Of a stretch of 64,000 nt of DNA, positions 2,191-58,767 are shown piece by piece. Source of the stretch: Nonlabens ulvanivorans (GTDB lineage Bacteria; Bacteroidota; Bacteroidia; Flavobacteriales; Flavobacteriaceae); contig NZ_JPJI01000005.1 in the NCBI RefSeq assembly GCF_000732625.1, forward strand, positions 1 through 64,000, read 5' to 3'. Position numbers and translations under genes: made by a program. The notes under the pieces are model-generated. The model ran no database searches and was not told the DNA's origin. It saw only the letters and a program-made list of their open reading frames with translations. Numbering within the stretch: position 1 is the first letter of the stretch; each line of letters opens with the position of its first letter.

Positions 2191-2210
2191 TACGCTTTCG
2201 CGAAAGCGTA
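2191..2210. repeat. Dispersed palindrome, intergenic copy 1
   Basis: Perfect 20-nt palindrome with core GCTTTCGCGAAAGC at 2194-2207. It lies about 60 nt upstream of the membrane protein gene at 2273. The right flank (taattata) is shared with the copy at 15689. Confidence 0.9.
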
Positions 2211-2272
2211 ATTATAAGGTCCATGTTGCAATTACCTTTTAGGGCGTACTATTTTATATCAACTAATTTTAA

Positions 2273-3586
2273 ATGAAGAAAAATCATCTTAAAACATCGT
2301 ATAAAAACTATGCTCCAGTAAGTTGGCAATTAGAATTCTTAATAGCTGGAGGAATTATCTTTTCTCTTTACACCAGTACCGATTATTTTAAGCATTTATT
2401 TCTTTTAAAATATCCAATTTCTAATTTTGATTATGCACAAGTATTGTTGTTTTTTGGCACTTATGTATTAACTAGAGTGTTATTGATTGGTTTTGGTCTT
2501 AATCTGGTTTTAAGAACAGTATGGCTAGCTTACTTTGCTATATCTTACTGGCATCCAGATGATGTGAATTATGATAAATTGAAACTCAATTTTTATCAAA
2601 AGAAAAATCATAAAGAACAGGCAAATGCAAAGGCTCGATTATTAAACCTAGATAAATGGGCTAACCTTAGTTTTAGCATCACAATCATATTCACTTTTAT
2701 AGTATTCAGTTCGATAATTGTCCTTTTATCAATTCAATTCATTTTGGCCGAATTGTTTGGAGCATACTGGTTAATCAATAATGCCGTGTTTAATTACACT
2801 TCCGCCATATTTGTATTATTACTTCAGTTGGGATTATTTGATTTTCTTTTAAGAAAAAAACATCAACGCGGTACTTTTTTTAAAATAGGGGACATGCTGT
2901 ATAAGATCTATTATTATGGTAGTGGTCTTTTCTTTTATAGGCGTGAATTACTTGTACTGCGCACTAATGGTAGGACTTGGTTATTACTGACTTTTGGTAG
3001 TGGTTATTTACTACTAGCGTTATTTATATCTATCAACCAGATTGGAGAGTTTTATCAAGCAGGAACTTTTAATGTGAATCTATTTGATGATCGAGAAACC
3101 TTTGATTCTTCTCAAAACTATATCGTAGATTATAAAATGTACGAAGATCAACTAGCACCCAATGAGGTTTTTTTCAATGGTGGAATACAAAGTCAATATG
3201 TAAAGGATAATTATTTAAAAGTATTTATTGTGCATCATCGTAAGTATGACTGGTATTTAAAGTATGTACAAGACAGTTTGAAATTAAATACCTATCAACA
3301 ACCAAAGTCAAATAGTTTAAGACGACAGTATGTCCAAGAAAGAGGAATATTAGATCAAGTAGCACTCAATAGATTAATTAAAGTAGAGATAGACGACAAA
3401 TTATATACAGATATCAACTGGGACCGTTATCAACACTATAAAACAAAAGAAGAAGGTTATCTTGCTTATATAAAGGTAGATACACTTGATCCAGGGCGAC
3501 ATGTGATTCGTACATATACTAGAAACAGGTTTACAGGTAAAGTGAGACCGTCCTACTGTTTTGTTGTACCTTTTTATTTAGATTAA
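2273..3586 (+). CDS. Polytopic membrane protein of unknown function
   Basis: 437 residues starting at an ATG. Five hydrophobic segments are visible, near residues 18-38, 53-92 (probably two helices), 130-165, 172-192 and 234-256. They are followed by a C-terminal soluble region of about 175 residues rich in Tyr, Asp and Lys. I do not recognise a named domain. Between helices two and three sits a charged loop (KKNHKEQANAK). The next gene, a DUF4251 lipoprotein, follows after 43 nt and may be co-transcribed. A role at the inner membrane is all that can be said. Confidence 0.75.
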   Translation: MKKNHLKTSYKNYAPVSWQLEFLIAGGIIFSLYTSTDYFKHLFLLKYPISNFDYAQVLLFFGTYVLTRVLLIGFGLNLVLRTVWLAYFAISYWHPDDVNYDKLKLNFYQKKNHKEQANAKARLLNLDKWANLSFSITIIFTFIVFSSIIVLLSIQFILAELFGAYWLINNAVFNYTSAIFVLLLQLGLFDFLLRKKHQRGTFFKIGDMLYKIYYYGSGLFFYRRELLVLRTNGRTWLLLTFGSGYLLLALFISINQIGEFYQAGTFNVNLFDDRETFDSSQNYIVDYKMYEDQLAPNEVFFNGGIQSQYVKDNYLKVFIVHHRKYDWYLKYVQDSLKLNTYQQPKSNSLRRQYVQERGILDQVALNRLIKVEIDDKLYTDINWDRYQHYKTKEEGYLAYIKVDTLDPGRHVIRTYTRNRFTGKVRPSYCFVVPFYLD

Positions 3587-3629
3587 CAGAATATGATTTG
3601 ATGATTACGACTAATAATTAAAAATTTAA

Positions 3630-4196
3630 ATGAAACATATAACAGCAGCAATTCTTTTAGTATTAACATTAATAGGTTGTAAGTCAAACCTTAATAGTGC
3701 AGAGGTTGCACAACAAAAACAACAACTCGAGCAGATAGCGGTTAAGATAAAACAAGACGATTTTCAAATTGTGATGAATACAGCGTATCCACTAGCAACT
3801 AATGCTGTTACTAATGTTCTTAACGGTATTTTAATTCCTAACGGCGATAGTGCAAACCGTATCGATTTATCTGATCGAGATGATTATATCGAGTTAGGAA
3901 ACAAATCTGTAAAAGGCGAATTGTCTTATTTTGGAGAACGACGCATATCATCAGGTTATGGAAATCAAGATACCGGAATCGAATTTAATGGCATACCGAC
4001 CAATTATACACAATATATCGATTATAAAAAAGGCTTAGTACGAGTTGAATATCAAATCAGCAATCAGGCAGAATCATTTGACATTACCATTGAAATATTT
4101 ACAAACCGCAAGGCAAATATAAATGTGAGCAGTTCACATCGTTCTAATATTAGATATACTGGTGTAATGGAGCAGATTAAAGAATTACCATTATAG
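3630..4196 (+). CDS. DUF4251 family lipoprotein
   Basis: 188 residues with a short signal peptide and a lipobox (LIGC, Cys17), so it is expected to be lipid-anchored in the cell envelope. The body matches my recollection of DUF4251. It starts with a helix rich in Gln, Glu and Lys, then a segment resembling DDFQIVMNTAYPL. A loop with residues like GDSANRIDLSDRDDY follows, and the rest is beta-rich. Members are common in Bacteroidota and have no assigned function. It lies 43 nt behind a membrane protein gene on the same strand. Confidence 0.8.
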   Translation: MKHITAAILLVLTLIGCKSNLNSAEVAQQKQQLEQIAVKIKQDDFQIVMNTAYPLATNAVTNVLNGILIPNGDSANRIDLSDRDDYIELGNKSVKGELSYFGERRISSGYGNQDTGIEFNGIPTNYTQYIDYKKGLVRVEYQISNQAESFDITIEIFTNRKANINVSSSHRSNIRYTGVMEQIKELPL

Positions 4197-4591
4197 AATG
4201 ATACTATATCAGTATGAATTTATTATCCATAATCATATAAAAGATTTGAAAGCTCTTTTAAAAGAGTAGTATCATTTACAAATATTCTATTTGACATAAT
4301 ATAAATTATAGAACAAAAGGATAGTTTAGTTCATAAGAGCACTTGATCCATTTGACAGCTATAATCTAGTATTATGAAAAGTATTCCTAAAGTATTCTCT
4401 TTATAAGAATAATTGGAACTTGGGATTCATTACTACTTTAATTAAAAATCGCGTATTCGATAAAATGTACGTGATAAAAAATTTTAGACGATTCTCGTGG
4501 ATTGTCACAAAATCATTAATTTAAAAAAAAAATAAAATTCTATGTATATGAGGCCGAGCTAAACATCGAAATTCTATTTTACATAATAATC
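4197..4591. other. AT-rich intergenic region with nested inverted repeats
   Basis: No plausible gene. A 9-nt arm ATGATACTA at 4198-4206 pairs with TAGTATCAT at 4267-4275, and inside it lies the perfect palindrome CTCTTTTAAAAGAG at 4253-4266. Together they could fold as a branched hairpin directly after the DUF4251 stop codon. The rest is AT-rich sequence forming the left border of the accessory block. Confidence 0.4.
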
Positions 4592-7500
4592 TTAATCTTC
4601 AAAAGCACTAAATAATTTTTCTTTAACATTATAAAAGCTTACTAATTTAAATGGCAATTCTTCTTTTTTAAGAAATTCTGTAGCTAATTGTTCTGATGTT
4701 AATATTATTGGAATAACATCAAATTCTTTTAAATCAATATTATATTTTGCTCCAAGTAAATCTTTATTAGCTATTATCCATTCATATCGTTCATTGTGTT
4801 TTTTTATCCATCCTTTTTTTGATTCACTTCCAAATAAGTTATTTACTTCTTCCACTAATTGTTTAATATTTTTTGCAGCTTCTGTATTTTTACACTCAAG
4901 TAAATAGATTTTTTTTGATTCTTTATTAATAACCAAAACGTCTATATCACCAATGTCTTTCGAGTGTTTTAATTGAGATTTGGTGTTTATTTCAACTTCT
5001 TTATCGATTATACTATTTTGAATAGTATCATTAAAATAATGATGTACTTCATTAGTAAAGGCCTCTCCTTTTTTATCTAGATTTTTACCAATTAATTTAT
5101 TTAATTTCCCCTCTGGTTTAGTTCTTAATTTCCCTGAATAAAATAAATAAAGTAAAAATCTTTCTGATTTAATTAATTGTCTAGGTCCTACATAATATTT
5201 ATTTTCCTTTTTTTCTGTATCAAAAACTTTTACAAGAGGTTTTTGATTAAGGGAAAGTCTTCTATTAAATCTCCAAGGAAATACATCATAGGTTTCCATT
5301 CCATCTGGAAGATCCATAATGTGCTTCCTTTTACTGAGCGAAAAATGATTTAATGATGTTATTATTTTTTCTTTACTCAATTCAGGTAACAATTTTTGTA
5401 TTTCATATATTAAATCATCTTCATATAAAATAGAACAACTAGGATCTTTGAAAAAACAAATTCCACTTAGAACTTGACTAAATTGGATTAATTGAGTCAA
5501 GTTAACGCCATATTCGGATATAAATGCTTCTTCTGTTTTTTTAGTAAATATTTCCTTCCCATCATCTTCAGGCAAATCTTTATAATTGTTTTTATAAGTA
5601 TTTATTGCATCACTTACATTTTCACTTGACTTAGACAACCTAAAAGGTTTAAATACCTGTTCTGATAATTTTTTATCTGTTCCAATTCTTCCAGACTTTA
5701 AAACATTTATTTTTATATCATCTAAATCATAATTTATTTGATCGCCAATCATTCCCCAACTAATTATTTGATCCATCTTAGCTAATAAATTATCAATATC
5801 TTCTTGACTTGGCAATAAATTCCCATTTCCAGGACATGCTGCAATATGTTCAATTAAGCATCTAATTGATAATGTAGTTCTATCGATATCTTGAAAACTT
5901 TCATTTAAATCGTCTATTTGCTTTTCCTTACTTATAAAGCAAGCTATCATTGTAGGTGTGTTTAGTATTTTCCTATTTCTATTATAAATTAGAGATTCAT
6001 TCAATCTAATGAAATGTTCTAATAAAAAGTGACTGTCATACTTTTCAATTTCGTTTATTAATTCTGGTAGGAATATTTTAGAAGACATTTTTTTTATGAA
6101 ATTGTTTTTATCTTCAATATCTACCGTTTTATTTGTTATAATTTTATGTTTTATAAGTTTAGGAATAAGTTTATCTAAATTCTTATTTATATTGTATTCT
6201 TGAATGTATCGGACTGAAGAAGTTCCTCTTGGGTCAAGCAGTAAATTATTATTAGTATTTAAAAGATATATCTTCTTTTTATGTGGAATATTTACAACAT
6301 TTTCTATTATTTCATTTATGCTATCTTGAGTTAAGATACCTTTATTTATTTTGTTTTTTGAAAGCATATTAAATCCTTCCAAGATTTTTCTAACCAATAT
6401 TTGTTCTCCTAAATTATCCTCACCATATAAGTACGGCAAAATTTTATGCGGAATAATTATGGTAATTGTAGTACCTGTAACACTAATCTCAAAATCATTT
6501 TCTATTCCCTCTTCCCTATCAAATTTGAATTCAATTTCATGAAACTTTAGTTTTTCTTTAAAATCGAAGTTTATAGTTATCGGTTGATAATCAATATTTT
6601 CCAAAGCAATTGACAAATATTCAGTTATTTGCCAAATCCAATAACTAATTGCATCAAGAAATTCAATATAGATACCTTTAGATTCTATTGGTACTTTAGA
6701 TAAATTATCCAAAGATTCTACCCAAATAGGTTGTTTATAACCTGTTATTACTTTTGTAAGTCTCTTGCCTAAATCAGCTGGAGAATAGTATAGATTTTCC
6801 TGTCCTTTTATTCTGATGCATGGTGTCTTATAAACTCTTCCTTTATCATCTCGACGACTGATTGAATGCGCATCTTCATCCTCATATACTTTTTGTATAA
6901 ATTTCTTAGCATATCCTAATTGTACCCACATCATATCTGGTTGAGCATCATCATTCATATAAAATGAATTATCTAAATCTTTGTACATTGAATACAAATC
7001 GATTTCATCTGTAAAGGAAGAAAATCTAGTTTTTTCAACGAATCGTTTCTTTGCTTGAGAATAATACCAAAAATCAAGAGCTTCGTATTCTCTTGTATTC
7101 ATAATAAGATCAAAATAATAAGCAGGAAAAGCCAAAACTTCTACACTATCATATTTTTTATAAGTTCTATAATACTCTCTTCCCAATCCTGCAAAAATCT
7201 GTATTGATAAAATTTTATCATCTGGGAATTGAGTTTGTAAGCTTTCAATAACTTGATCAATATGTTTTTCTATCCTCGATGCATTCTTATTTTTTCCCTG
7301 AGAACCAAATGGTTTAGTAATATCATAATTACTACCATCATCATATTGCATACTTACATATACAATTTTATCTCTGTCAATTCTGTAGAACTCTTCATAT
7401 ATATCTAAGCCTGAATTATCAATAGGTTTGTATTTTTCTAGCCTAATATAATCTGAGTAGCCAAGATGAACATTAATGTTATTCCAAATTATTGAGGTAT

Positions 7501-8386
7501 AAATAGTTATTAATTCTTTTAAACAGTTTTGAGAAATAGACATTTCAATTATTGCATGTAATAGCGCAATATGAAAGTTTCCTAATGAAATTATTTTGTA
7601 ACCACCATTTACTTTTAATATTGGCTTTCCGATAACAGGATTTTTACTTTCTTCAACGGTTGTTAAATCTTCTTCTTGAATACCCAAAAGGATTAGATTA
7701 ATGATTTCCTTTTCAATTTTATATATCTCACATAATTTCAAAAAATCATCTTCAACAATACTAATTGCATTTATATAATCAATAGCTTCTTCTTTTTTAA
7801 AAACACTAATCTCATTATTTACAATATCTGCTTCTAAATATCTTTCGAGACCAACATCTCTAATTGCTTTGTCAGAAATATTTAACATTAATAAACTTAA
7901 TTGAGTAACTAAGCTTTTGAAAGTGTTTGGTAGCTTGTTTTTAGTGTGAAAAATTGCACCGAGAATATTCGATAATATAAAATCACCTCCTTCAGATATT
8001 CCAGGTAAGATTAAATAATCTCCTCCAAAAAAGGTAATTATTTTTGTAAACGGATTAACTGGAGGATCTTCAAAATGATGGTGTGCATAATAAGTGTTTA
8101 ACACTTTTATCAATTCAATTATATTTGCTGAACCATTATCTTTTTTACCATGTAGCAAGCTTTCTCGCATTAATAATTCGAGGCGAATGTTTTTTCCATG
8201 ATTGTTTGGAAAAAGAAAACTCGAACTAAATACATCAATTAAAAAATTAATATTAAACTTTGATAAAGGATGTGCATTTGTAGGTCTTGGTATTTTTACA
8301 GTGCTAATTTTACCGATACAGCACTTTTTGTATTTCTTACCACTTCCACAAGGGCATTTATCATTTCGTCCAATTTTATTACCCAT
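4592..8386 (-). CDS. SEC-C zinc-motif protein with C-terminal PD-(D/E)XK nuclease-like domain
   Basis: 1264 residues from an ATG. Residues 5-24 form a SEC-C zinc motif with the CPCGSGKKYKKCC signature. A long region without a domain I recognise follows. The C-terminal part carries a restriction-endonuclease-like core: Glu1108 in a KKGEAF helix, Asp1149 in GDIDVLVI, and E1164-x-K1166 in LLECKN. This is the E...D...ExK layout of PD-(D/E)XK nucleases, close to the NERD/Mrr style, and the key residues are intact. The gene is AT-rich and isolated, with two small unrelated genes upstream on the same strand. I infer a nuclease that could act in defence or nucleic acid quality control. The cleavage activity and target are not shown by the sequence. 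Confidence 0.8.
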   Translation of the reverse strand: MGNKIGRNDKCPCGSGKKYKKCCIGKISTVKIPRPTNAHPLSKFNINFLIDVFSSSFLFPNNHGKNIRLELLMRESLLHGKKDNGSANIIELIKVLNTYYAHHHFEDPPVNPFTKIITFFGGDYLILPGISEGGDFILSNILGAIFHTKNKLPNTFKSLVTQLSLLMLNISDKAIRDVGLERYLEADIVNNEISVFKKEEAIDYINAISIVEDDFLKLCEIYKIEKEIINLILLGIQEEDLTTVEESKNPVIGKPILKVNGGYKIISLGNFHIALLHAIIEMSISQNCLKELITIYTSIIWNNINVHLGYSDYIRLEKYKPIDNSGLDIYEEFYRIDRDKIVYVSMQYDDGSNYDITKPFGSQGKNKNASRIEKHIDQVIESLQTQFPDDKILSIQIFAGLGREYYRTYKKYDSVEVLAFPAYYFDLIMNTREYEALDFWYYSQAKKRFVEKTRFSSFTDEIDLYSMYKDLDNSFYMNDDAQPDMMWVQLGYAKKFIQKVYEDEDAHSISRRDDKGRVYKTPCIRIKGQENLYYSPADLGKRLTKVITGYKQPIWVESLDNLSKVPIESKGIYIEFLDAISYWIWQITEYLSIALENIDYQPITINFDFKEKLKFHEIEFKFDREEGIENDFEISVTGTTITIIIPHKILPYLYGEDNLGEQILVRKILEGFNMLSKNKINKGILTQDSINEIIENVVNIPHKKKIYLLNTNNNLLLDPRGTSSVRYIQEYNINKNLDKLIPKLIKHKIITNKTVDIEDKNNFIKKMSSKIFLPELINEIEKYDSHFLLEHFIRLNESLIYNRNRKILNTPTMIACFISKEKQIDDLNESFQDIDRTTLSIRCLIEHIAACPGNGNLLPSQEDIDNLLAKMDQIISWGMIGDQINYDLDDIKINVLKSGRIGTDKKLSEQVFKPFRLSKSSENVSDAINTYKNNYKDLPEDDGKEIFTKKTEEAFISEYGVNLTQLIQFSQVLSGICFFKDPSCSILYEDDLIYEIQKLLPELSKEKIITSLNHFSLSKRKHIMDLPDGMETYDVFPWRFNRRLSLNQKPLVKVFDTEKKENKYYVGPRQLIKSERFLLYLFYSGKLRTKPEGKLNKLIGKNLDKKGEAFTNEVHHYFNDTIQNSIIDKEVEINTKSQLKHSKDIGDIDVLVINKESKKIYLLECKNTEAAKNIKQLVEEVNNLFGSESKKGWIKKHNERYEWIIANKDLLGAKYNIDLKEFDVIPIILTSEQLATEFLKKEELPFKLVSFYNVKEKLFSAFED

Positions 8387-8549
8387 AATAAATTAATAGA
8401 ATATTGAAAAGATTATTTAACAAATAGGGAGATTTTAATTTTACAAATTATTATAGGAATAACTTTGAGTGAAACCGTAAATGTTTGAAAATTAGTGAAC
8501 TTGAAATCATTTCACACACTTAATAGGCTTCTCTCCTAAATCATATGTT

Positions 8550-9197
8550 TCATTTGTAAGGAAAGAAATCCCAATCATAACTATTCTCGCTATTGTTATG
8601 AATTTTTTTAATCTTGTCTAATAATCGAAATCTGTGACCAGCTCCAACAAGGAATACTGCCTTATTAGGTTTATTTATTTTAAAGTTGTTATCAATAAGA
8701 TTAATCCATTGGTTCTCACGTAGGTCATTCCATCTTAACCACTCAGAGTAGAAGTCTGATAACTCCTGATTATTCACCTTATCTATGAAGTGTTTCTCCA
8801 TGGAATTTTTATCTCTAAATATCTTATCACTATCTGGGCTGTTTAAAAAAGGTAAACCTTTCACATATGTCTCATTTAATAGCTTATTATTTGCGTTAGA
8901 GTATACTTTCATTTTCCGATTAATTAAGGAGAACATAGCTTCTAGACGTTTGTCGAATGGATCTTCATTAACATCAATAGGGACTATTTCAATAGGTTTT
9001 TCTTTAATTAATCTTTTAATGACCTCCATTTCTGGAGTAACAATATCAGTTCTCTTCACAAATCGAGATAATTTTTCAGGAGAAATCTCACAAAAAACTA
9101 CCTGAGGATTGATTTTCTCTATAATTTTATATAATTCTTCAGAAGTACAAACTCCTACTTCCGAATGAGCAGTTCCTAAAATAATTAAAGTACTCAT
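8550..9197 (-). CDS. TraB/TIKI-superfamily-like protein
   Basis: 215 residues from the ATG at 9197. A longer frame from a TTG at 9227 is possible but less likely. The N-terminus reads as a beta strand followed by GTAH, then a helix and NPQVVFCEISPE. Near the C-terminus comes AVFLVGAGHR. This paired GTAH / GxGH layout with an early glutamate is typical of the TraB/GumN/TIKI/ChaN-like superfamily, some members of which are metalloproteases. No signal peptide or membrane segment is visible, so a cytoplasmic location is likely. It sits 163 nt upstream of the SEC-C nuclease-like gene on the same strand, but the gap argues against tight coupling. Confidence 0.6.
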   Translation of the reverse strand: MSTLIILGTAHSEVGVCTSEELYKIIEKINPQVVFCEISPEKLSRFVKRTDIVTPEMEVIKRLIKEKPIEIVPIDVNEDPFDKRLEAMFSLINRKMKVYSNANNKLLNETYVKGLPFLNSPDSDKIFRDKNSMEKHFIDKVNNQELSDFYSEWLRWNDLRENQWINLIDNNFKINKPNKAVFLVGAGHRFRLLDKIKKIHNNSENSYDWDFFPYK

Positions 9198-9385
9198 AAT
9201 TCTATTTATTTGACTTAAAGAAGTCAAACGTTAGACCAATTAATGATTTTTTATTTTTTTAATAAAATTACTGACAGATATCAAATAAATACAACAAAAA
9301 GATGTCGCTATGTCATTAAAATATACTTTTCTTATCCATATTACAAATATTAATTTAAGCTTAACTTATTTCTCTCAAAGAAATC

Positions 9386-9967: not shown

Positions 9968-10436
9968 TTGTCAAAAAAAAATGAGGATAAAATGAAGAAC
10001 AAGAAGTAACAACTCTCGCTTTTAACCAAAGCTCAAGTTACATAACGCGGTACATTATAGAACAAATTGTAACATTGGTTTTAGACATCAGTAATACCAC
10101 AACTAACTTAACACAGCTTACTTATAAATTTAATATAATGAAGAATATGCCATGATGATGTAAATATTATAGCAACAGGATTCGCACGTGTATAGCATCA
10201 AACGGTTACCAAATAAAAAAGCCACAAACTGTGGCTTTTTAAAAGTTTTAAATAAAAAGTAGATTTTATGGCAATCAACTAGTTGACTTTACTTGACTAT
10301 AAAATTCCCATTATTTCTTATCCAAATAATTGTTTCTTTTTCAATTTAAAGAAAAGAATTTGCATTTTTTTCCGACTCAAATAAAAAAGCGATTTCTACT
10401 TTTTCTCATGGTATAAAGAGTAAAATTAAGCATTAA
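9968..10436. other. Intergenic region at right border of accessory block
   Basis: 469 nt without a gene. It holds one strong terminator hairpin (10216-10240) and a short palindrome TCAACTAGTTGA near 10275-10286. No integrase, tRNA or clear attachment repeat was found. Confidence 0.4.
10216..10240. terminator. Intrinsic terminator, probably bidirectional
   Basis: Stem AAAAAGCCAC / GTGGCTTTTT with loop AAACT and U-runs on both strands. It may serve the nitroreductase gene, whose stop is about 200 nt upstream on the minus strand. Confidence 0.8.
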
Positions 10437-12156: not shown

Positions 12157-12218
12157 TGCAATAGCTATAGTTCAATTGATATTATGATTTTATTTAACTT
12201 GCGGTAAAACCAAGCTTC

Positions 12219-12824: not shown

Positions 12825-12850
12825 TCCTTGATCATTTATAACTGTAAATG

Positions 12851-12937: not shown

Positions 12938-12988
12938 CACAAACGTCTTTTTAAACTAACCTATTATCATCATCATTAAAATTAAAAG

Positions 12989-13426: not shown

Positions 13427-13448
13427 TTTTAATGTTTTTTATGATTCC

Positions 13449-13601: not shown

Positions 13602-13621
13602 GCACCCTAAAAACAAAAAAG

Positions 13622-15688: not shown

Positions 15689-15712
15689 ATTACGCTTTCG
15701 CGAAAGCGTAAT
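15689..15712. repeat. Dispersed palindrome, intergenic copy 2
   Basis: Perfect 24-nt palindrome around core GCTTTCGCGAAAGC at 15694-15707, 12 nt after the channel gene's stop codon. There is no U-run, so it is not a classical terminator. Confidence 0.9.
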
Positions 15713-18712: not shown

Positions 18713-18728
18713 TGCTTTCGCGAAAGCA
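18713..18728. repeat. Dispersed palindrome, intergenic copy 3
   Basis: 16-nt perfect palindrome TGCTTTCGCGAAAGCA (core 18714-18727) located in the leader of the minus-strand DoxX-like gene. Confidence 0.9.
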
Positions 18729-22752: not shown

Positions 22753-22768
22753 CGCTTTCGCGAAAGCG
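22753..22768. repeat. Dispersed palindrome, intergenic copy 4
   Basis: CGCTTTCGCGAAAGCG (core 22754-22767) between the helicase start and the metallo-hydrolase stop, 49 nt after that stop. Confidence 0.9.
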
Positions 22769-25628: not shown

Positions 25629-25644
25629 CGCTTTCGCGAAAGCG
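25629..25644. repeat. Dispersed palindrome, intergenic copy 5
   Basis: CGCTTTCGCGAAAGCG (core 25630-25643), in the divergent gap between the GT9 operon and the histidine kinase gene. Confidence 0.9.
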
Positions 25645-32672: not shown

Positions 32673-32688
32673 CGCTTTCGCGAAAGCG
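32673..32688. repeat. Dispersed palindrome, intergenic copy 6
   Basis: CGCTTTCGCGAAAGCG (core 32674-32687), 5 nt after the alcohol dehydrogenase stop and before its terminator, so it would be transcribed in the 3' end of that message. Confidence 0.9.
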
Positions 32689-35892: not shown

Positions 35893-37137
35893 TTATACAA
35901 AAATTCCATTCTCGATATTACTAATTACCGCTTGCGCTGCAGCCTTACCATTCAGCATTGCTGCATTTAATGATCCATTGCTTAATTGATCACCAGCTAA
36001 GAAGATGTTTTGAGTAAGTTGAGTTTCAGTAGGGCTCATAGCATATTGAATGCTATCAAAAGTTGGCAATGCCTTTTTAATTTCCATCATTTGAATCAAA
36101 TCGCCAGCTTTAATATGAGCCTGCTCTATAAGTTCTTTACGCACACGTTCTTCTAGTTGATCTTTAGTGAGATCATGTTTTGCCACAACGCTTACACTAA
36201 TCACCTTTGGATGATTTTCAAAAACATCATTTAGAAAATGAAAGTTATTACTTAAACAATCATCACCAGCAATTAAACCGATGATAGGCTGGTCAAAACC
36301 ATGATCATCTGTATCAAAATATAAAGTCTGAACACTGTGCCATGGATTATTTGACTTAGGTAAATTGGGCACTAAAACATCTGCAGGAGTAGCTATAATA
36401 GTATAATCACTCTTAAGATTGTCGCCGTTAACTAGTTGAATTGTATCTGCAACAACTTCTTTAACGGTGGTGTTTAATCGGATTTGTCCATCTAATTGAT
36501 GAGCCATTTGTTCAGGTATTGCTTTGATTCCAGCAGCAGGAATAGTTGCGTTTCCTTCACTGAACATTTTAAAGACAAACTCAAACATACGACTACTCGT
36601 TTGCAGTTGAGTTTCTAGAAAAATACCGGTATAAAAAGGCTTAAAAAAGCTTTTGATCATCTTTTCAGAAAAACCATAATCTTGAAGATATTGAAGAGTA
36701 GTTTTTTCTGGGCTTTTAAAAATATCTATTAGATTCTTCTGTTTTAGCTTTCGCGAAAGCGTGTATACCTTCCATTTATCACTGACACTACCTACTCCAG
36801 CAACAATCGTTTTCCACGCATATTTCATATCACGTTGCGCATCACCTATTACGTGCTTTTTACCATCGATATAAATGACAGACGCAGGACTAAATTTTAC
36901 TAAGTCTAAAGCATCTAAATTAAGGAACTCTTGCGCTGCTGGATAATGATCTAATAATACCTGAAAACCATGATCAAGCTTCATTGCGCCATTGATAGTT
37001 GTGTTTACTCGACCACCAATTGTAGCAGCCTGTTCTAATACTTGAGCATTATAACCAGCTTTTTTTAATGTAAGAGCCGCAGCTAGTCCACTTACACCAG
37101 CACCTATTATATGAATCTTTACGTCTTTATGAGCCAT
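35893..37137 (-). CDS. FAD-dependent oxidoreductase (phytoene desaturase/amine oxidase family)
   Basis: 414 residues from the ATG at 37137. The N-terminal dinucleotide-binding motif is GAGVSGLAAALTL, then EQAATIGGRVNTT, which is the GG-R motif of the amine oxidase/phytoene desaturase superfamily. The C-terminal FAD segment reads NIFLAGDQLSNGSLNAAMLNG. Substrates in the family include carotenoid precursors and amines; nothing here decides which. It carries a palindrome copy in frame (TLSRKLK). Its stop lies 3 nt from the stop of the convergent broken frame. Confidence 0.83.
   Translation of the reverse strand: MAHKDVKIHIIGAGVSGLAAALTLKKAGYNAQVLEQAATIGGRVNTTINGAMKLDHGFQVLLDHYPAAQEFLNLDALDLVKFSPASVIYIDGKKHVIGDAQRDMKYAWKTIVAGVGSVSDKWKVYTLSRKLKQKNLIDIFKSPEKTTLQYLQDYGFSEKMIKSFFKPFYTGIFLETQLQTSSRMFEFVFKMFSEGNATIPAAGIKAIPEQMAHQLDGQIRLNTTVKEVVADTIQLVNGDNLKSDYTIIATPADVLVPNLPKSNNPWHSVQTLYFDTDDHGFDQPIIGLIAGDDCLSNNFHFLNDVFENHPKVISVSVVAKHDLTKDQLEERVRKELIEQAHIKAGDLIQMMEIKKALPTFDSIQYAMSPTETQLTQNIFLAGDQLSNGSLNAAMLNGKAAAQAVISNIENGIFV
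36747..36760. repeat. Dispersed palindrome inside FAD oxidoreductase gene
   Basis: Exact GCTTTCGCGAAAGC core. On the minus strand it is read in the frame Leu-Ser-Arg-Lys-Leu, unlike the Ala-Phe-Ala-Lys-Ala frame of other genic copies. Confidence 0.85.
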
Positions 37138-38143: not shown

Positions 38144-38959
38144 ATGAAACACATTACCAGTCCACACAACGCCATCATCCGTCATGCAGAATTATTGCAA
38201 CGCAAGAGTAAAGCACGTAAAAAAGAAGGCCTATTTCTTATTGAAGGACAACGCGAGATCATGCTAGGTGATCATGGTGGTTTTGAGTTACAGCAATTAT
38301 TAGTCTGTGGATCTATTCTTTTAAATACAGAAGATTTTGAAGCTAGTGATGTCTACCACAAAATAAATATCAATAGTAATCCAGAAGTTATATCAGTTAC
38401 TCAAGAAGTGTATGAGAAACTTGCATACAGGACAGGAACAGAAGGTGTTATCGCTTTCGCAAAAGCAAAATCTCAACAACTACAAGATTTAAAATTATCT
38501 AAGAATCCTTTAATCCTTATAGCAGAATCACCTGAAAAACCTGGGAATTTAGGTGCAATTTTAAGAACTGCAGATGCTGCAAAAGTAGATGCCGTTATCA
38601 TCGCAAATCCAGTAGCAGATCTTTTTAATCCTAACGTAGTACGTTCTAGCGTAGGTTGTGTGTTTACCGTTCCTACTGCAACAGGTACAACTAGCGAAGT
38701 AGTGGATTTCTTAAAGTCCAAAAACATCAACTTATATGCAGCTACATTACAATCTAGTGAACGCTATGATGTCATGGATTATACTACCGGAAGCGCCATT
38801 GCACTAGGAACTGAGGCAACCGGATTATCTCAAGAAATACGAGACGCTGCCTTGAAAAACATAATTATCCCCATGAGTGGTGCTATAGATTCTATGAATC
38901 TTTCAGTAAGTGCAGCAATATTAATATTTGAGGCAAAAAGGCAACGAGATTTTAAATAA
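38144..38959 (+). CDS. TrmH-family (SpoU) 2'-O-ribose RNA methyltransferase
   Basis: 271 residues. The N-terminal substrate-binding domain (KHITSPHNAIIRHAELLQRKSKAR, residues 1-100) is followed by the SPOUT knot. Its motif 1 contains ESPEKPGNLGAILRTADAAK, motif 2 IALGTEATGLS and motif 3 IPMSGAIDSMNLSVSAAI, which together bind S-adenosylmethionine. The target is a ribose in rRNA or tRNA; the sequence does not say which. A near copy of the dispersed palindrome is embedded in frame at 38453. Confidence 0.9.
   Translation: MKHITSPHNAIIRHAELLQRKSKARKKEGLFLIEGQREIMLGDHGGFELQQLLVCGSILLNTEDFEASDVYHKININSNPEVISVTQEVYEKLAYRTGTEGVIAFAKAKSQQLQDLKLSKNPLILIAESPEKPGNLGAILRTADAAKVDAVIIANPVADLFNPNVVRSSVGCVFTVPTATGTTSEVVDFLKSKNINLYAATLQSSERYDVMDYTTGSAIALGTEATGLSQEIRDAALKNIIIPMSGAIDSMNLSVSAAILIFEAKRQRDFK
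38453..38466. repeat. Imperfect palindrome copy inside TrmH-family gene
   Basis: GCTTTCGCAAAAGC differs by one base from the core. It encodes Ala-Phe-Ala-Lys-Ala, at the link between the two domains. Confidence 0.7.
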
Positions 38960-39002: not shown

Positions 39003-40238
39003 ATGGACGCTATTTCATTGTTCTATCTTATTATAGGAATACTTGTTTTTGATTTTATATTAGATCAATTATTAGGTTATCTTAATTATACATGGTATTC
39101 TAAAGATGTTCCCCAAGAATTGAATGACGTCTATGATGCCGATGAGTATGCTAAATCACAAGAGTATAAAAAGACCAATTATCGATTCAGTCTATTAAGC
39201 AGCAGTATTTCCTTTATTGCAATTCTGATTTTTTTATTTTATGATGGATTTGCTATTATCGACACATGGGCACGCACTTTAGTAAATCACGATATACTAG
39301 TTGGCTTATTATTTTTTACAGTCATTGCGGCCGCTGGTGAAATCATCTCACTACCTTTTTCCTACTACTCTACTTTTGTAATTGAAGAAAAATTTGGTTT
39401 TAATAAAACAACGATAAAGACTTTTATCATCGATAAAATCAAAGGTTGGTTGCTTACCGCAATTCTAGGCGGTGGAATATTGTCTCTCGTAATTGTATGT
39501 TATGATTGGGCTGGAGCAAATTTCTGGTGGTATGTATGGATTTTGATTTTTGCGATCTCTCTATTGATGAATATGTTCTATGCGCGCTGGTTTGTTCCAC
39601 TTTTTAATAAACAAACACCTCTAGAAGAAGGAACTTTAAAAACGTCAATTGGAAATTATGCACAAGGTGTAGGTTTTCAACTCGATAAGATTTTTGTGAT
39701 AGATGGTAGTAAAAGATCTACTAAGGCTAATGCGTACTTCAGTGGTTTTGGAAGTGAGAAACGTGTAACACTTTATGACACATTAATTTCTAAATTAACT
39801 GAAGAAGAAATAGTTGCCGTACTAGCTCACGAGGTTGGGCATTATAAACGTAAACATATCATTTATAACTTGATAGCAAGTACTATTACGACAGGTTTTA
39901 CACTATGGTTGTTTTCATTATTTGTCGATAGCGCAACACTTTCAGAGGCTCTAGGTGTGGCCATACCTTCTTTCCATGTCGGTTTAGTGGCATTTGGACT
40001 GCTTTACTCGCCTATTTCTACGATTACTGGAATAGTGATGAGTTCGCTTTCGCGAAAATTTGAATATGAAGCCGATGCTTTTGCAAAAGATACTTATAAA
40101 GGAGAACCGCTCATCGATGCACTTAAAAAATTGAATAAAACCAGTTTAAGCAATCTTACACCGCATCCAGCTTATGTCTTCTTCAACTACTCGCATCCTA
40201 CACTATATCAAAGAATGATGGCGATGAGAGAAAATTAG
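39003..40238 (+). CDS. M48-family membrane zinc protease (Ste24/CAAX-protease-like)
   Basis: 411 residues with several membrane helices in the first 200 residues, as in Ste24. The zinc motif HEVGH is at 276-280 (LAHEVGHYKRKH), and the third ligand Glu lies in FEYEADAFAKD about 75 residues later. Ste24-like NAYFSGFG precedes the motif. In bacteria these enzymes degrade damaged membrane proteins. Full length matches the family. A half-degenerate palindrome copy lies inside at 40046 (SLSRKF). Confidence 0.9.
   Translation: MDAISLFYLIIGILVFDFILDQLLGYLNYTWYSKDVPQELNDVYDADEYAKSQEYKKTNYRFSLLSSSISFIAILIFLFYDGFAIIDTWARTLVNHDILVGLLFFTVIAAAGEIISLPFSYYSTFVIEEKFGFNKTTIKTFIIDKIKGWLLTAILGGGILSLVIVCYDWAGANFWWYVWILIFAISLLMNMFYARWFVPLFNKQTPLEEGTLKTSIGNYAQGVGFQLDKIFVIDGSKRSTKANAYFSGFGSEKRVTLYDTLISKLTEEEIVAVLAHEVGHYKRKHIIYNLIASTITTGFTLWLFSLFVDSATLSEALGVAIPSFHVGLVAFGLLYSPISTITGIVMSSLSRKFEYEADAFAKDTYKGEPLIDALKKLNKTSLSNLTPHPAYVFFNYSHPTLYQRMMAMREN
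40046..40059. repeat. Half-degenerate palindrome copy inside M48 protease gene
   Basis: GCTTTCGCGAAAAT keeps 12 of 14 core bases. It is read in the Leu-Ser-Arg-Lys frame. Confidence 0.55.
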
Positions 40239-41368: not shown

Positions 41369-42743
41369 TCGATTGTTTGAAGGTTTTGAACCTGTCTCAG
41401 AAACGGCCTGGAAACAAAAAATCCAGATGGACCTTAAAGGTGCAGATTATAACGAGACACTAGTCACTAAAACAAATACTGGAATCGATATTAAACCGAT
41501 ATATCACAGTGACAGTGCTCCACAATTAAATATTCCTGCTCGTGCCACAGATAACTGGTTTATTTCTCAAAGAATCTATGCTGGTAATGCTACGGCAGCA
41601 AACAAGAAAGCAAAAGACGTATTAAATCGTGGTAGTGAAGGTGTACTTTTTGTTATCCCTAATAAAGAAATTGACCCAACGGTTTTACTTAAAGGATTAC
41701 CAGAATATGGAATTCAAATCCATCCACAATTTATGGACTTGGATTACATAAAACAGGTACATGATATCAATCCTAAAGCTTACGTACATATTGATATTAT
41801 CAATCAATTAGCAAGTGATGGAAACTGGTTTAATGATTCAAAAAAGGATCATTACAACTATGCTGAGTTCATTAAATCATTCTCAGCATACTTTTCTCAG
41901 TTTACAGTAAACACGAGTTTATATCAAAATGCTGGTGCTACTACCACTCAAGAATTAGGCTATTATGCAGCACATTTAAACGAGTATTTAAATCACTATT
42001 GCGATACCAGTAAAGAGCATGATGCAGGTGTTTATGAAGCTTTCGCGAAAGCAGAAAAAAGAATCAACATAGACACTTCCATAGGTAATAATTACTTTAT
42101 GGAAATTGCAAAATATAGAGCATATCGGTTAATAACCAAAGCTATAGGCAATCTCTATAGTATAGACTTAAAATGCTATATCACAGCGAGTCCAAGTCTC
42201 CGAAATAAATCTTTACTTGACTATAATGTCAACTTATTACGCACCACGACAGAATGTATGAGTGCCGTCTTAGGAGGCGCAGATACCTTATATAATTTAT
42301 CTTATGACGCCTTCTTTAATAAAGAAAATGAGTTTGGAGATCGTATAGCTCGCAACCAACTACGCATCTTAAAAGATGAAGCTTATTTAGAAAAAATAAA
42401 TAATGCAGCAGATGGTTCTTACTATATCGATACACTAACAAAACAACTTACAGAAAAAGCCTTAGATCTTTTTAAAATGATAGAAAATGGCGGTGGTTTT
42501 GTACAATCGTTATTTGATGGCACGATACAACGCAAAATAAAAGAAAGTGCGGCACAAGAATTAAGTGACTTAGGCAATGGTAAAAAAATTCTCGTTGGTG
42601 TCAATAAATATCCAAATGCAGATTTGCCACTACAAAAGGAGTATGAATTATACCCATTTGTAAAAGCAAATCCTCGTAAGACTCTTATAGCTCCTATTGT
42701 TCCTACTCGACTAGCCGAGTCTATTGAAAAAGCACAGTTGTAA
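41361..42743 (+). CDS. mutA: Methylmalonyl-CoA mutase small (beta) subunit
   Basis: 460 residues, homologous to the TIM-barrel of the large subunit but divergent, as expected for the non-catalytic small subunit. It opens [30 protein letters not shown] and has a truncated C-terminus without a complete cobalamin motif. It starts 8 nt before the ftsB-like stop and ends with TAATG overlapping mutB, so the three are coupled. A dispersed palindrome is embedded in frame at 42039 as EAFAKAE. Confidence 0.9.
42039..42052. repeat. Dispersed palindrome inside mutA
   Basis: Exact core, read Glu-Ala-Phe-Ala-Lys-Ala-Glu in a probable helix. The gene is otherwise intact. Confidence 0.9.
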
Positions 42744-44869
42744 TGAAAAGAAAAGATATATCTCAAGTAAAAGCCGATTTTAATTTTGCTTCTTCTCAAA
42801 AAGCTGATTTACCAGTTTATGAAACATCTGAAGGAATTGATATCAAAAAGTACTATTCTAAAGAAGATACTGAACATTTAGAACATTTAAATTTTGTAGC
42901 TGGACTTGCACCTAATTTACGTGGTCCTTATTCTACAATGTATGTGCGTCGTCCATGGACCGTTCGCCAATATGCTGGTTTCTCAAGTGCTACAGAGTCT
43001 AATTCCTTTTACAGACGCAATCTCGCTGCTGGACAGAAAGGACTTTCTGTCGCCTTTGACCTTGCAACACATCGTGGTTATGATAGTGATCATGAGCGTG
43101 TCGTTGGTGATGTAGGAAAGGCTGGTGTTGCAATCGATAGTGTTGAAGACATGAAAGTGCTTTTTGATGGAATACCATTAGATAAAATGTCTGTTTCTAT
43201 GACCATGAATGGTGCTGTGTTACCCATCATGGCATTTTACATCGTTGCTGCTATGGAGCAAGGCGTAGATCCTGCTTTATTAAGCGGAACAATACAAAAT
43301 GACATCTTAAAGGAATTTATGGTGCGCAACACCTATATCTATCCGCCATCGCCTAGTATGCAGATTATATCTGACATTTTTGAATACACGAGCAAAAACA
43401 TGCCTAAATTCAACTCGATTTCTATATCGGGTTATCACATGTATGAAGCTGGTGCAACTAGTGATATAGAACTTGCCTACACGCTAGCAGATGGATTGGA
43501 ATACGTACGTAAAGGTCTTGCCGCCGGAATGGATATCGACACCTTTGCTCCTAGACTATCGTTTTTCTGGGCCATAGGAATGAATCACTTTATGGAAATA
43601 GCCAAAATGCGTGCTGCACGCATGTTATGGGCTAAAATGATTCAACAGTTTAATCCTAAAAACCCTAAGTCTCTAGCTTTAAGAACACATTGCCAGACAT
43701 CTGGTTGGTCGCTTACAGAACAAGATCCTTTTAATAACGTGGCACGTACGACTATTGAAGCTGCTGCGGCCGCCTTTGGTGGTACACAAAGTCTACATAC
43801 CAACGCACTAGATGAAGCTATTGCTTTGCCTACAGACTTCAGCGCACGCATAGCTCGTAATACGCAGTTGTTCTTACAAGAAGAAACTGGAATTACTAAA
43901 ACGGTAGATCCTTGGGCTGGTTCTTATTACGTCGAGTCTCTAACTAACGATATCGCTCATAAAGCCTGGGAACTTATAGAAGAGGTAGAAGAACTAGGCG
44001 GAATGACCAAGGCGATTGAAGCCGGAATTCCTAAAATGCGTATTGAAGAAGCTGCTGCCAAGAAGCAAGCGCGCATAGATAGCGGTATAGACACCATCGT
44101 AGGCGTTAATAAATACCCAAGTCCAGATGAAGATCTGATTGATACGCTAGAAGTTGATAATGCTGCCGTGCGCATTGAACAAGTCAATCGTTTAAAAGAG
44201 ATAAGAGCTTCTCGAAATACCGAAAAGGTTCAGAAAGCGCTTGAAAACCTTACAGATTGTGCAAGAAGCAAGAATGGCAACTTACTAGAACTCGCTGTTA
44301 TAGCTGCTCAAGAACGTGCTACTCTCGGTGAAATATCAGATGCTTTGGAGAGCGTTTATGGAAGATATCGTGCACAAATAAAAAGTGTTCAAGGTGTTTA
44401 TAAAAAAGAGATTATGAATGATCCTGCTTTCGCGAAAGCGCAACAACTAGCTGACCAATTTGCTCAAAAAGAAGGTCGCCGCCCTAGAATCATGATTGCC
44501 AAAATGGGACAAGATGGACATGATCGTGGAGCAAAAGTAGTCGCTACTGGTTATGCTGATGTAGGCTTTGATGTGGACATAGGTCCACTGTTTCAAACAC
44601 CAGCCGAAGCTGCAAAACAGGCTGTAGAAAACGATGTGCATGTATTAGGCGTAAGCTCTTTAGCTGCAGGACATAAAACCCTTGTTCCTCAAGTAATGGA
44701 AGAGCTCAAAAAATATGGGCGTGAAGACATAATGATCGTCGTTGGTGGTGTGATTCCACGCAAAGATTACCAGTATTTATTTGACGCTGGAGTAGCTGCT
44801 GTCTTTGGTCCTGGTACTAAAATCAGTGATGCAGCAATTGATATTTTAGGGTTGTTGATGGAGGATTAA
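42743..44869 (+). CDS. mutB: Methylmalonyl-CoA mutase large (catalytic) subunit
   Basis: 708 residues. The TIM-barrel contains [24 protein letters not shown] and [31 protein letters not shown]. The B12 domain has DGHDRGAK at 591-598 (His593 is the lower cobalt ligand), then [13 protein letters not shown]. It interconverts succinyl-CoA and methylmalonyl-CoA, linking propionate or branched-chain amino acid metabolism with the citric acid cycle, and needs coenzyme B12. A palindrome copy lies at 44426, in the linker before the B12 domain (PAFAKAQ). Confidence 0.95.
44426..44439. repeat. Dispersed palindrome inside mutB
   Basis: Exact core, in frame as Pro-Ala-Phe-Ala-Lys-Ala-Gln in the linker between the barrel and the B12 domain. 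Confidence 0.9.
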
Positions 44870-47909: not shown

Positions 47910-49395
<1,486 letters not shown>

Positions 49396-51682: not shown

Positions 51683-51704
51683 TTACGCTTTCGCGAAAGC
51701 GTAA
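51683..51704. repeat. Dispersed palindrome, intergenic copy 7
   Basis: 22-nt perfect palindrome around core 51687-51700, between the serA terminator and the DUF1456 gene. Confidence 0.9.
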
Positions 51705-55606: not shown

Positions 55607-55665
55607 CTTTACAAAACCCGTTTCACCTAGCTTGTAGGTCGTTCCACAGTTTGTATTTTTACAAC

Positions 55666-56463
55666 ATGATGGAGATAATTGTAATCGGTACTGGTAACCT
55701 AGGTTTAAATCTATGTAAGGCTATTGAAAATCAATATGTTAATAATGATTCCGCTTTCGCGAAAGCAAAAAACACGAACGTTAAAAATACCCTAAAATTA
55801 GTAGGTTACTACAACACGAGCGCTACGTGTATAGATACTCTAAAGGCACCACTACTCTACTCTATCAAGGCTCTTCCTAAAGCAGATCTGGTTATTATCG
55901 CAACACCAGATGATCACATCGTTAATGTAAGTACTACCATTAACAGTAACGCCATTATAGCTCACACCAGTGGTAGCGTTGCAATGCAGGCTGTATCTAA
56001 CCATGTTAATCACGGTGTTTTTTATATACCACAAAGTTTCAGTAAGTCTAGAGAAATGAACTTTAAAGAATTGCCTATCTGTGTCGAGTTTAATAACAAT
56101 ATTGCTCAAGAAGGATTGGAGAAATTAGGCAATCAGTTGTCTAGCAAGCTTACATATCTTAATTCACAACAACGTGGACGTTTACACATCGCTGCCGTTT
56201 ATATGAATAACTTTGTCAACCACTGTTATACAAAAGCCGATGAAATTTTAAATGAAGCTAATATTGATGCTTCTTTACTATATCCTTTAATGAATGAAAC
56301 GCTTGCAAAAGCACAAGAAATAAGCCCATATGAGGCGCAAACAGGTCCTGCAAGGCGTAACGATGTGCAAACCATTGCGAGACATCTTGAGGCTATAAAA
56401 TCTAATGATCGCAATATGTATGACGCGATTACACAATCAATTAAAAACACCTATGGCAATTAG
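55666..56463 (+). CDS. Rossmann-like and DUF2520 domain protein
   Basis: 265 residues from the first ATG of an ATG pair at 55666/55669. The dinucleotide motif IIVIGTGNLGLNLCKAI leads a Rossmann domain with LVIIATPDDHI and AHTSGSVAM. The helical C-terminal half (AVYMNNFVNHCYTKADEIL, TGPARRNDVQTIARHLE) matches DUF2520. It resembles NADP-dependent imine/ketopantoate-type reductases, but the substrate is unknown. First gene of an operon, overlapping kdsC by 11 nt. Palindrome copy in frame near residue 30 (SAFAKAK). Confidence 0.85.
   Translation: MMEIIVIGTGNLGLNLCKAIENQYVNNDSAFAKAKNTNVKNTLKLVGYYNTSATCIDTLKAPLLYSIKALPKADLVIIATPDDHIVNVSTTINSNAIIAHTSGSVAMQAVSNHVNHGVFYIPQSFSKSREMNFKELPICVEFNNNIAQEGLEKLGNQLSSKLTYLNSQQRGRLHIAAVYMNNFVNHCYTKADEILNEANIDASLLYPLMNETLAKAQEISPYEAQTGPARRNDVQTIARHLEAIKSNDRNMYDAITQSIKNTYGN
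55753..55766. repeat. Dispersed palindrome inside DUF2520 gene
   Basis: Exact core, read Ser-Ala-Phe-Ala-Lys-Ala-Lys, in a loop region after the first Rossmann helix. Confidence 0.9.
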
Positions 56464-57931: not shown

Positions 57932-57933
57932 CT

Positions 57934-58515
57934 ATGCTTCAAGAAAAATTTAAGAATACCGAAATCATTCTAGCGTCGCAATCACCTAGAAGACAAGAGC
58001 TTTTAAAAGGACTTGACATTAATTTCAAGATTGAAACCAGACCAGTAAATGAAGTATATTCTAATGATTTAAAAGGTGCACAAATCACTGATTACCTATC
58101 AGTTCTTAAAGCTGATGCCTTCATAAATGATTTAAAGGATGATCAACTATTAATTACAAGTGATACTATCGTTTGGTTCAATGATGCACCGCTGGAAAAA
58201 CCTAAAAATGATCAGCATGCTATCGACATGATTACTTCAATGAGTGGTCAAGTTCATGAAGTTTATACCTCAGTTTGTTTTACCTCTACTACTCAACAAA
58301 CCGTAATTAACGATTGTACTAAAGTGCATTTTGCAAATTTAACTGCTGCAGAGATTGAATATTACGTAAAAACATACCGACCAATGGATAAAGCCGGTGC
58401 ATACGGTATTCAGGACTGGTTAGGCTATGCAGCGGTTACCAGGCTTGAAGGCTGCTATTACAATGTAATGGGATTACCATTGCCTAAGGTATATGGGTTT
58501 TTAAAGAGTTTATAA
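57934..58515 (+). CDS. maf: Maf-family nucleoside triphosphate pyrophosphatase
   Basis: 193 residues from the ATG at 57934, two bases after the UbiA stop. The family signature ASQSPRRQELL occurs near residue 14, with SDTIVW, EKPKNDQHAI, GQVHEVYTSVCF and DKAGAYGIQ. It hydrolyses non-canonical or pyrimidine nucleoside triphosphates (dTTP, UTP) and helps avoid misincorporation. Part of the same operon. Confidence 0.92.
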   Translation: MLQEKFKNTEIILASQSPRRQELLKGLDINFKIETRPVNEVYSNDLKGAQITDYLSVLKADAFINDLKDDQLLITSDTIVWFNDAPLEKPKNDQHAIDMITSMSGQVHEVYTSVCFTSTTQQTVINDCTKVHFANLTAAEIEYYVKTYRPMDKAGAYGIQDWLGYAAVTRLEGCYYNVMGLPLPKVYGFLKSL

Positions 58516-58516
58516 A

Positions 58517-58726
58517 ATGAAAAAAGTCATTCTATTAATCATCATTCTATCCATTGCGTTGGGCACACTTTTTTACTTCTCACGTATTTCCTTTCAAATA
58601 GATGCCTTTAAATTAAAATTATGGGCCAGTGAGGTATTATTTTTTCTAGTAGTAGGAGCTATTAGTGGCTTTATCTCGTTAAGGCATGGCAAACGATGGA
58701 GCCGGAAAAAAGATGAAAGTCAATAA
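58517..58726 (+). CDS. Small membrane protein
   Basis: 69 residues, two hydrophobic helices (about 3-20 and 37-55), with a basic C-terminus (RHGKRWSRKKDE). It starts one base after the maf stop, so it is an operon member. I do not recognise the family. Confidence 0.65.
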   Translation: MKKVILLIIILSIALGTLFYFSRISFQIDAFKLKLWASEVLFFLVVGAISGFISLRHGKRWSRKKDESQ

Positions 58727-58753
58727 TTATTTACACAAACTTGATGTGATTAC

Positions 58754-58767
58754 GCTTTCGCGAAAGC
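58754..58767. repeat. Dispersed palindrome, intergenic copy 8
   Basis: Core GCTTTCGCGAAAGC between the small membrane protein gene and the SDR gene; 41 nt before the CTAAAC operator. Confidence 0.9.

Follow-up and report, generated by a model that had tools for sequence, protein, structure and literature searches.

We examined a 64,000-nt stretch of the Nonlabens ulvanivorans genome (contig NZ_JPJI01000005.1, positions 1 to 64,000; hereafter the window) in which a perfect 14-nt palindrome, GCTTTCGCGAAAGC, is iterated in genes and spacers. There are 13 exact copies, plus one site with one mismatch and one with two; 100 dinucleotide shuffles of the window, with up to two mismatches allowed, gave a mean of 0.05 matches and never more than 1. 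An original prediction made from the letters of the window had listed 13 copies, and all were found where it had placed them; its count of eight intergenic copies is also correct, the other five lying within open reading frames (ORFs). It had further described the intergenic copies as often being perfect palindromes of 18-24 nt, which holds for two of them and fails for the other six: their lengths are 14, 16, 16, 16, 16, 20, 22 and 26 nt (all 13 copies, 14-26 nt). The wider consensus of the site is ATTAC-GCTTTCGCGAAAGC-GTAAT. Four of the five in-frame copies encode the peptide A-F-A-K-A in the same frame. The sites, with their state in relatives where loci could be aligned, are:

2194..2207, no strand: exact 14-mer, intergenic; palindrome 2191-2210
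15694..15707, no strand: exact 14-mer, intergenic; palindrome 15688-15713, 26 nt
18714..18727, no strand: exact 14-mer, intergenic; palindrome 16 nt
22754..22767, no strand: exact 14-mer, intergenic; palindrome 16 nt
25630..25643, no strand: exact 14-mer, intergenic; palindrome 16 nt
32674..32687, no strand: exact 14-mer, intergenic; matched exactly by BBFL7, while the N. ulvanivorans locus has a 1-nt deletion
36747..36760, no strand: exact 14-mer in ORF 35893-37140 (-), peptide LSRK; BBFL7 differs by one mismatch, N. ulvanivorans is exact
38453..38466, no strand: single mismatch (position 9, G>A), a variant shared with N. ulvanivorans; BBFL7 and N. tegetincola have the exact 14-mer
40046..40059, no strand: two mismatches, with one terminal GC missing; sequence shared by BBFL7 and N. 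ulvanivorans but not by N. tegetincola
42039..42052, no strand: exact 14-mer in the P0002 frame, peptide AFAKA; kept exactly by 10 of the 11 genus loci
44426..44439, no strand: exact 14-mer in the P0001 frame, peptide AFAKA; kept exactly by 9 of the 11 genus loci, the other 2 having one mismatch
48343..48356, no strand: exact 14-mer at the 5' end of ORF 48298-49395 (+), peptide AFAKA; of the 11 genus loci 5 align here, and all of these have the exact site
51687..51700, no strand: exact 14-mer, intergenic; palindrome 51683-51704, 22 nt; BBFL7, the sole aligning locus, has the exact site
55753..55766, no strand: exact 14-mer in ORF 55651-56463 (+), peptide AFAKA
58754..58767, no strand: exact 14-mer, intergenic; palindrome 14 nt

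Read from its translation, P0002 appears to be the small subunit of methylmalonyl-CoA mutase and P0001 a methylmalonyl-CoA mutase. The window has one long gap between sites (2194-15694), and within it lies an ORF of 1264 aa (4592-8386) whose only Pfam match is the SEC-C motif.

The internal TCGCGA of the palindrome is not iterated alone: 13 of its 16 occurrences in the window belong to exact copies. Nor is the half-site GCGAAAGC, whose 28 occurrences comprise 26 contributed by the 13 copies, read on both strands, and two by near-sites. A reading of the site as the stable DNA mini-hairpin GCGAAAGC was rejected, as the half-site does not recur by itself. Folded as DNA, the 14-mer is weak (z -0.21), and the 24-nt consensus reaches -8.2 kcal/mol (z -2.78).

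Abundance and taxonomic range

The palindrome is not peculiar to the window. The host genome (3.21 Mb in 45 contigs) contains 566 exact copies, or about 176 per Mb, and 108 one-mismatch copies, 674 in all, while a control with the letters of the 14-mer reversed occurs 0 times; the original prediction had named a near-random genome-wide count, or confinement to the window, as outcomes that would speak against it, and neither was observed, since copies occur genome-wide and also in relatives. About 27% of the host genome was read, the copies in the remainder being counted only. A sample of 873 kb of it holds 157 exact sites against 0.0 expected, an overrepresentation typical of a highly iterated palindrome in the descriptive sense. 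The excess is graded: sites with 0, 1, 2, 3 and 4 mismatches number 157, 29, 12, 28 and 153 in this sample against 0, 0.2, 1.4, 17.8 and 164 expected, so that the first three classes lie far above expectation, the fourth slightly above and the last at expectation.

All 23 Nonlabens genomes examined, less complete ones among them, carry 288-857 copies. Among 54 named loci found by a search with P0002, each of the 11 Nonlabens loci carries 2-6 copies, and the palindrome is missing from the other 43; these 11 include BBFL7, a record that is not titled Nonlabens yet is the closest relative. Across 397 sampled genomes of the family, 80 contain the 14-mer: four members of the genus, G190 with 408 copies, G206 with 857, and 74 motif-poor genomes with 1-19; the other 317 have none. 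Beyond the family, exactly one copy was found in 4 of 206 genomes of an order sample and in 6 of 179 of a phylum sample, and zero in the others. On a tree of a single gene (P0001), G190 and G206 fall outside the Nonlabens clade, adjoining motif-poor G144; this tree needs at least two changes of motif state, three as drawn, although G190 is a long branch of uncertain placement. The motif has therefore been gained more than once, transferred, or repeatedly lost. We found no earlier description of it, the 14-mer being absent from the main texts searched, which included few subscription papers and no supplements.

Orthologous sites

Over 400 kb the host and BBFL7 share 86.9% identity, and a random 14-mer is identical between them in 26% of cases. 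Over 600 kb, 107 of 109 host sites align to BBFL7, and 98 of those 107 are exact in both. Among the 19 sites exact in one species only (nine in the host, ten in BBFL7), 13 differ by one base in the other. In coding windows with an identical peptide 36 of 39 AFAKA-frame sites are identical, against 40% of background 14-mers.

Host-only and BBFL7-only sites tend to adjoin. Eight of the 19 have a partner of the opposite species within 4.5 kb where 1.5 are expected (p=0.004, with the 4.5 kb threshold picked after the pairs had been seen; a version based on median distance gives p=0.034). The window has an opposite pair of its own, 36747 and 38453, which stands outside the 19-site test.

Even spacing

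The 157 sites of the 873-kb host sample define 152 gaps with a mean of 5.5 kb and a coefficient of variation (CV) of 0.50. None of these gaps is shorter than 1 kb and three are shorter than 2 kb, against exponential expectations of 25 and 46; a placement null with the same coding/intergenic split gave 48.5 gaps below 2 kb, with a minimum of 37 in 300 runs. BBFL7 behaves alike (4 of 110 gaps below 2 kb, 34 expected), gaps above 12 kb are few in both, and site density is near-uniform at 15-20 per 100 kb over 600 kb. A 19.7-kb gap on contig C4 was considered as an island; it holds ordinary genes in the five ORFs scanned and two one-mismatch sites, and is not an obvious one.

In three other genomes the pattern is looser. 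G206 has 12 of 52 gaps below 2 kb against 18.6 expected (CV 0.69), and G190 has 5 of 38 against 11.4, with a CV of 0.82 that, taken alone, resembles random placement (19% of simulations were as low). For G397, a genome of the genus for which the listed positions of one contig were used, the figures are 16 of 93 against 33.2 (CV 0.92). G397 holds pairs of sites 223 and 270 bp apart, and a few close pairs occur in G206 too. Even spacing is thus strong in the lineage of the host and a tendency elsewhere.

Position relative to genes

With gene calls from a crude longest-ORF caller, 71 of 122 sites fall in coding sequence, which makes up 91% of the DNA, and their frames are divided 44/13/14. Among spacers, the convergent ones hold few sites: 3 in 11.1 kb, compared with 47 in 43.9 kb of co-directional and 19 in 20.6 kb of divergent spacers. 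In co-directional spacers the sites lean toward the upstream stop codon (13, 16, 12, 4 and 2 sites in successive fifths). The original prediction had remarked that the intergenic copies lack U-runs, and rightly: T-runs are not enriched at sites, with T5 present within 12 nt on either side at 4 of 157 sites as against 6% of random places. The sparse convergent spacers, the position within co-directional spacers and the lack of T-run enrichment together argue against Rho-independent terminators, which we rejected.

Variant sites

We collected 68 one-mismatch sites from samples of four genomes (not all independent, as the host and BBFL7 share part of them by descent) and folded them on the symmetry axis. 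Mismatches concentrate at position 5 (30 sites) and position 6 (16), and are rare at positions 3, 4 and 7 (1, 0 and 3). In G206 positions 6, 1 and 2 lead, not 5. Among two-mismatch sites, 10 of 15 in G206 and 8 of 14 in G190 (18 of 29 together) differ solely in the terminal GC of one arm, a pattern that looks like a symmetric protein accepting one weak half-site and suggests that the tolerance of a putative reader in these two genomes may differ slightly from that in Nonlabens.

The host variants at position 5 keep away from exact sites: 15 of 15 lie at least 2 kb from one, where 34% of the sample lies so far. Twelve position-5 variants on C32 were compared with BBFL7, which has the same variant at six and an exact site at four. 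Gaps above 9 kb make up 20% of the DNA yet contain 12 of 29 one-mismatch sites (p=0.007). These variants therefore probably still function. Decay driven by redundancy, in which one-mismatch sites would lie near exact ones, was rejected; the trend is opposite in the host (G000; 21 sites, mean distance 3239 bp versus 1743 at random) and in G206 (17 sites, 2784 bp versus 1643), and G190 (6 sites) showed no clear difference.

Motif-poor genomes, islands and phages

Site positions were inspected for part of the 74 motif-poor genomes, with mixed results. All 16 copies of G076 lie within 78 kb of one contig; G287 and G051 have two clusters each (7 and 11 of 19 copies, and 12 and 4 of 17), with spacings partly common with G076; and G087, G215, G201, G078, G337 and G012 have clusters too. 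Copies are mostly scattered in G144 (9), G329 (6) and G042 (6), above chance by our estimate, and may be relics. G144 and G329 belong to the same motif-poor genus and could hold the relics of a lost system, a reading in keeping with the position of G144 on the P0001 tree, where it adjoins G206 and G190.

We scanned ten ORFs that carry the site in motif-poor genomes. Half of them are RND, outer-membrane efflux or P-type ATPase genes; the remaining five encode a Fur-like regulator, a histidine kinase, a mannosyltransferase-like protein, an NmrA-like protein (G350) and an enzyme of histidine biosynthesis (G351). One efflux gene was compared in nine copies, with DNA identities of 66-100% (three above 92%); at two places the exact site is retained, in six and in seven of the nine. 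The proportion of one-mismatch to exact sites is higher in islands (26:71) than in Nonlabens (49:314; p=0.003, with L033 and L035 left out, related islands not being independent and the Nonlabens total summing related genomes), as fits decay after transfer, but the contrast is not clean: motif-rich G206 is island-like (17:53), and G190 has 6:40. The simplest view is that these islands would have matured in motif-rich hosts and then moved.

The G076 region (contig C3, about 27-117 kb, L307-L311) encodes copper/heavy-metal efflux, a multicopper oxidase, an MmeI-like restriction gene, a Fic protein and an M15 peptidase, together with a run of small genes that, among those scanned, are mostly without clear family. 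A conjugative element with its own use of the site had first been suspected from clusters sharing a recurring 933-bp pair; this was set aside. No conjugation family was matched in the 20 ORFs scanned, a minority of those in the G076 region.

The palindrome is absent from two Nonlabens phages that total 71 kb. With a single 32-nt stretch as query, plasmid and phage collections returned four and two records, none convincing (best E 0.2, for two Weissella plasmids). Viral contigs yielded at least 120 stretches, mostly single copies and near chance by our estimate, with a few AT-rich contigs holding several. Some phages do seem to carry the site, given that the 38-kb viral IMG/VR contig 3300039191_000362 (L111, L128, L133), which has phage transposase and baseplate hub matches, contains three palindromes. 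Within the host, contig C8 (L247, 14236 bases) has no palindrome; its genes are of defence type and encode a reverse transcriptase, a C5 methylase with an adjacent MvaI/BcnI-type restriction enzyme, and a pair of DUF3584 and DUF7281 proteins, which we take to resemble Wadjet.

Interpretation

On sequence evidence, our best reading is that GCTTTCGCGAAAGC is a genome-wide recognition site for a putative sequence-specific factor, which would probably contact both half-sites symmetrically. Conservation, the pattern of variants and even spacing together indicate a selected site whose benefit would be local and mostly met by one copy per several kb; selection would maintain the site, with the factor acting on stretches of several kb, for each of which one site suffices. 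The original prediction had offered a protein-binding site for nucleoid or chromosome organisation. As a class this stands, on conservation, position-specific tolerance and spacing, with the binding itself putative. Even spacing, genus-wide conservation and transferred islands are new beyond that prediction. A site of such strength implies an as-yet putative and probably important DNA-reading protein in this marine genus, and its even spacing opens a general question, why highly iterated motifs are retained by bacteria, to direct test. The site may also serve as a barcode, motif-dense islands in motif-poor genomes flagging DNA, metal-resistance islands included, that probably came from motif-rich donors.

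What the factor would do is less certain. Tentatively and by analogy, we lean toward a signal that would mark self-DNA for uptake and recombination in Nonlabens, like the DNA uptake sequences (DUS) of Neisseriaceae and the uptake signal sequences (USS) of Pasteurellaceae. Fragments bearing the site would be taken up or recombined preferentially; a new site would be favoured chiefly where the local stretch has none; and the filling of gaps by favoured new sites would yield even spacing. Support comes from the genus-wide abundance with sharp limits, the even spacing, the graded mismatch classes, the conservation and the losses beside opposite neighbours, as well as from the two site-free Nonlabens phages and from a different motif, TTTCCGAAGAAA, in one locus of Arcticiflavibacter, as dialects would be. 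The literature offers parallels: graded mismatch classes are reported not for uptake sequences alone but for other overrepresented oligomers as well (PMC1939737); the distribution of USS is called relatively even, and uptake drive predicts evenness (PMC7811141); Riemerella columbina, a flavobacterium, prefers its own DNA in uptake (PMC7965970); and the transformation genes of R. anatipestifer are treated in PMC8459023.

Several points weigh against an uptake signal, beginning with density: one site per 4-6 kb is about one fifth of that implied by USS spacing. To our knowledge, no perfectly palindromic uptake sequence has been described. The mean spacing of USS is about 1 kb, and Haemophilus influenzae 86-028NP has 230 USS pairs no more than 100 bp apart (PMC7811141), whereas the host sample has none below 1 kb. 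Avoidance of close pairs fits a spacing constraint better than drive alone, though the G397 pairs at 223 and 270 bp show that it is not absolute. Convergent spacers are poor in the palindrome, unlike the overlapping USS pairs found at gene ends (PMC7811141). Flavobacterium johnsoniae was not competent under the conditions in which R. columbina was.

A chromosome organiser is the next contender, one that we consider somewhat unlikely: a nucleoid-associated protein would bind every 5 kb or so and bridge or insulate loops, making sites less than about 2 kb apart useless or harmful. Several features favour such a protein: the highly regular spacing seen in the host and in BBFL7, where gaps below 2 kb are nearly excluded and those above 12 kb are few, the near-uniform density along 600 kb, the distance of all 15 position-5 variants in the host from exact sites, and the conservation between species. 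The looser spacing in G397, G190 and G206 does not fit, nor do transferred islands that keep a similar site density in hosts otherwise almost free of sites.

A Chi-type recombination or repair signal, read by a helicase-nuclease at broken ends and working from either side because it is palindromic, seems improbable. Its frequency of one per several kb, conservation, overrepresentation and absence from the two Nonlabens phages would suit it; yet Chi is read in one orientation, and neither even spacing nor a lack of close pairs would be expected.

We regard as very improbable a by-product like that proposed for highly iterated palindrome 1 (HIP1), in which an orphan methyltransferase with its target inside the palindrome steers mismatch repair toward it. 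The palindrome is indeed highly iterated, with GC-rich ends and centre, as in the HIP1 model (PMC4390886). Against this, the C5 methylase family PF00145 is not genus-wide, matching in 14 of 23 genus genomes and in none of the other nine, all of them site-rich; the only host match is on the site-free 14-kb contig, beside the restriction enzyme; and the internal TCGCGA is not iterated by itself.

Least credible of all is the RIP/REP-like (repetitive extragenic palindromic) or mobile palindrome of the original prediction, a selfish element akin also to miniature inverted-repeat transposable elements and inserting itself, which the many dispersed copies and their presence in transferred islands might suggest, because REP and RIP elements insert as a unit and are largely extragenic, whereas 71 of 122 copies here lie in called frames (5 of 13 in the window, four encoding AFAKA), in-frame copies recur throughout the genus at identical codons of conserved genes, 13 of the 19 copies that one of the two species lacks are a single base away from an exact site in it, the shared flank is merely a symmetric ATTAC/GTAAT preference, and the spacing is even.

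Comparison with known iterated motifs

By description the nearest system is HIP1 with the alternate HIPs of cyanobacteria (PMC4390886), likewise perfect palindromes iterated genome-wide and limited to lineages. The core here is 14-16 nt where HIP1 has 8, the phylum is another, and about 176 copies per Mb fall well short of the 1000-2000 per Mb of HIPs (PMC4390886). Nor is there a genus-wide C5 methylase here. A later paper reportedly deals with selection on HIP1 and its periodicity, and we do not claim evenness as a difference from HIP1.

In behaviour DUS (PMC3630211) and USS (PMC7811141) come nearest, sharing hundreds of copies, graded mismatch classes, a relatively even distribution, a lineage-level signal and the marking of islands; DUS have been used to find transferred islands (PMC7371117). 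Unlike them, the site is palindromic, about 5x sparser than USS, has few close pairs and is sparse in convergent spacers. The close or overlapping pairs of USS, some acting as terminators, have no counterpart in the host sample (0 of 152 gaps below 1 kb; 4 of 157 sites near T5).

Chi is a frequent, conserved oligomer found every few kb, asymmetric and oriented; the present site is likewise conserved every few kb but palindromic and evenly spaced, so that oriented recognition does not apply. The sites of parS, Noc and MatP are dimer-bound palindromes of similar length, with tens of copies in restricted regions, as against 566 copies here, and the half-site spacing differs from that of parS and Noc sites.

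A second motif and possible dialects

Flavobacteriaceae may recognise self-DNA through genus-level dialects, an idea that we hold as possible though doubtful: the 14-16 nt palindrome would serve Nonlabens and two further genera and TTTCCGAAGAAA would serve Arcticiflavibacter, read by a putative protein and laid out about once per 5 kb. DUS dialects are described in PMC3630211. If true, such a system would be the first signal of its kind in Bacteroidota and the first palindromic one known to us, and would mark the donor of transferred islands.

A second dialect in Arcticiflavibacter is suggested at most, by a single 21-kb locus of Arcticiflavibacter luteus (L089, 789-18742) in which TTTCCGAAGAAA, a different iterated motif, has five exact and three one-mismatch copies on both strands. 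A 20-kb scan of G039 showed one exact and one near copy of TTTCCGAAGAAA and no clear iterated 12-mer. Genome-wide, TTTCCGAAGAAA is frequent in some of 239 genomes of the family, with 185 copies on the two strands together in G063 (control 8), 136 in G076 (control 5) and 122 in G039 (control 5), and its counts are also elevated in G012, G007 and G027.

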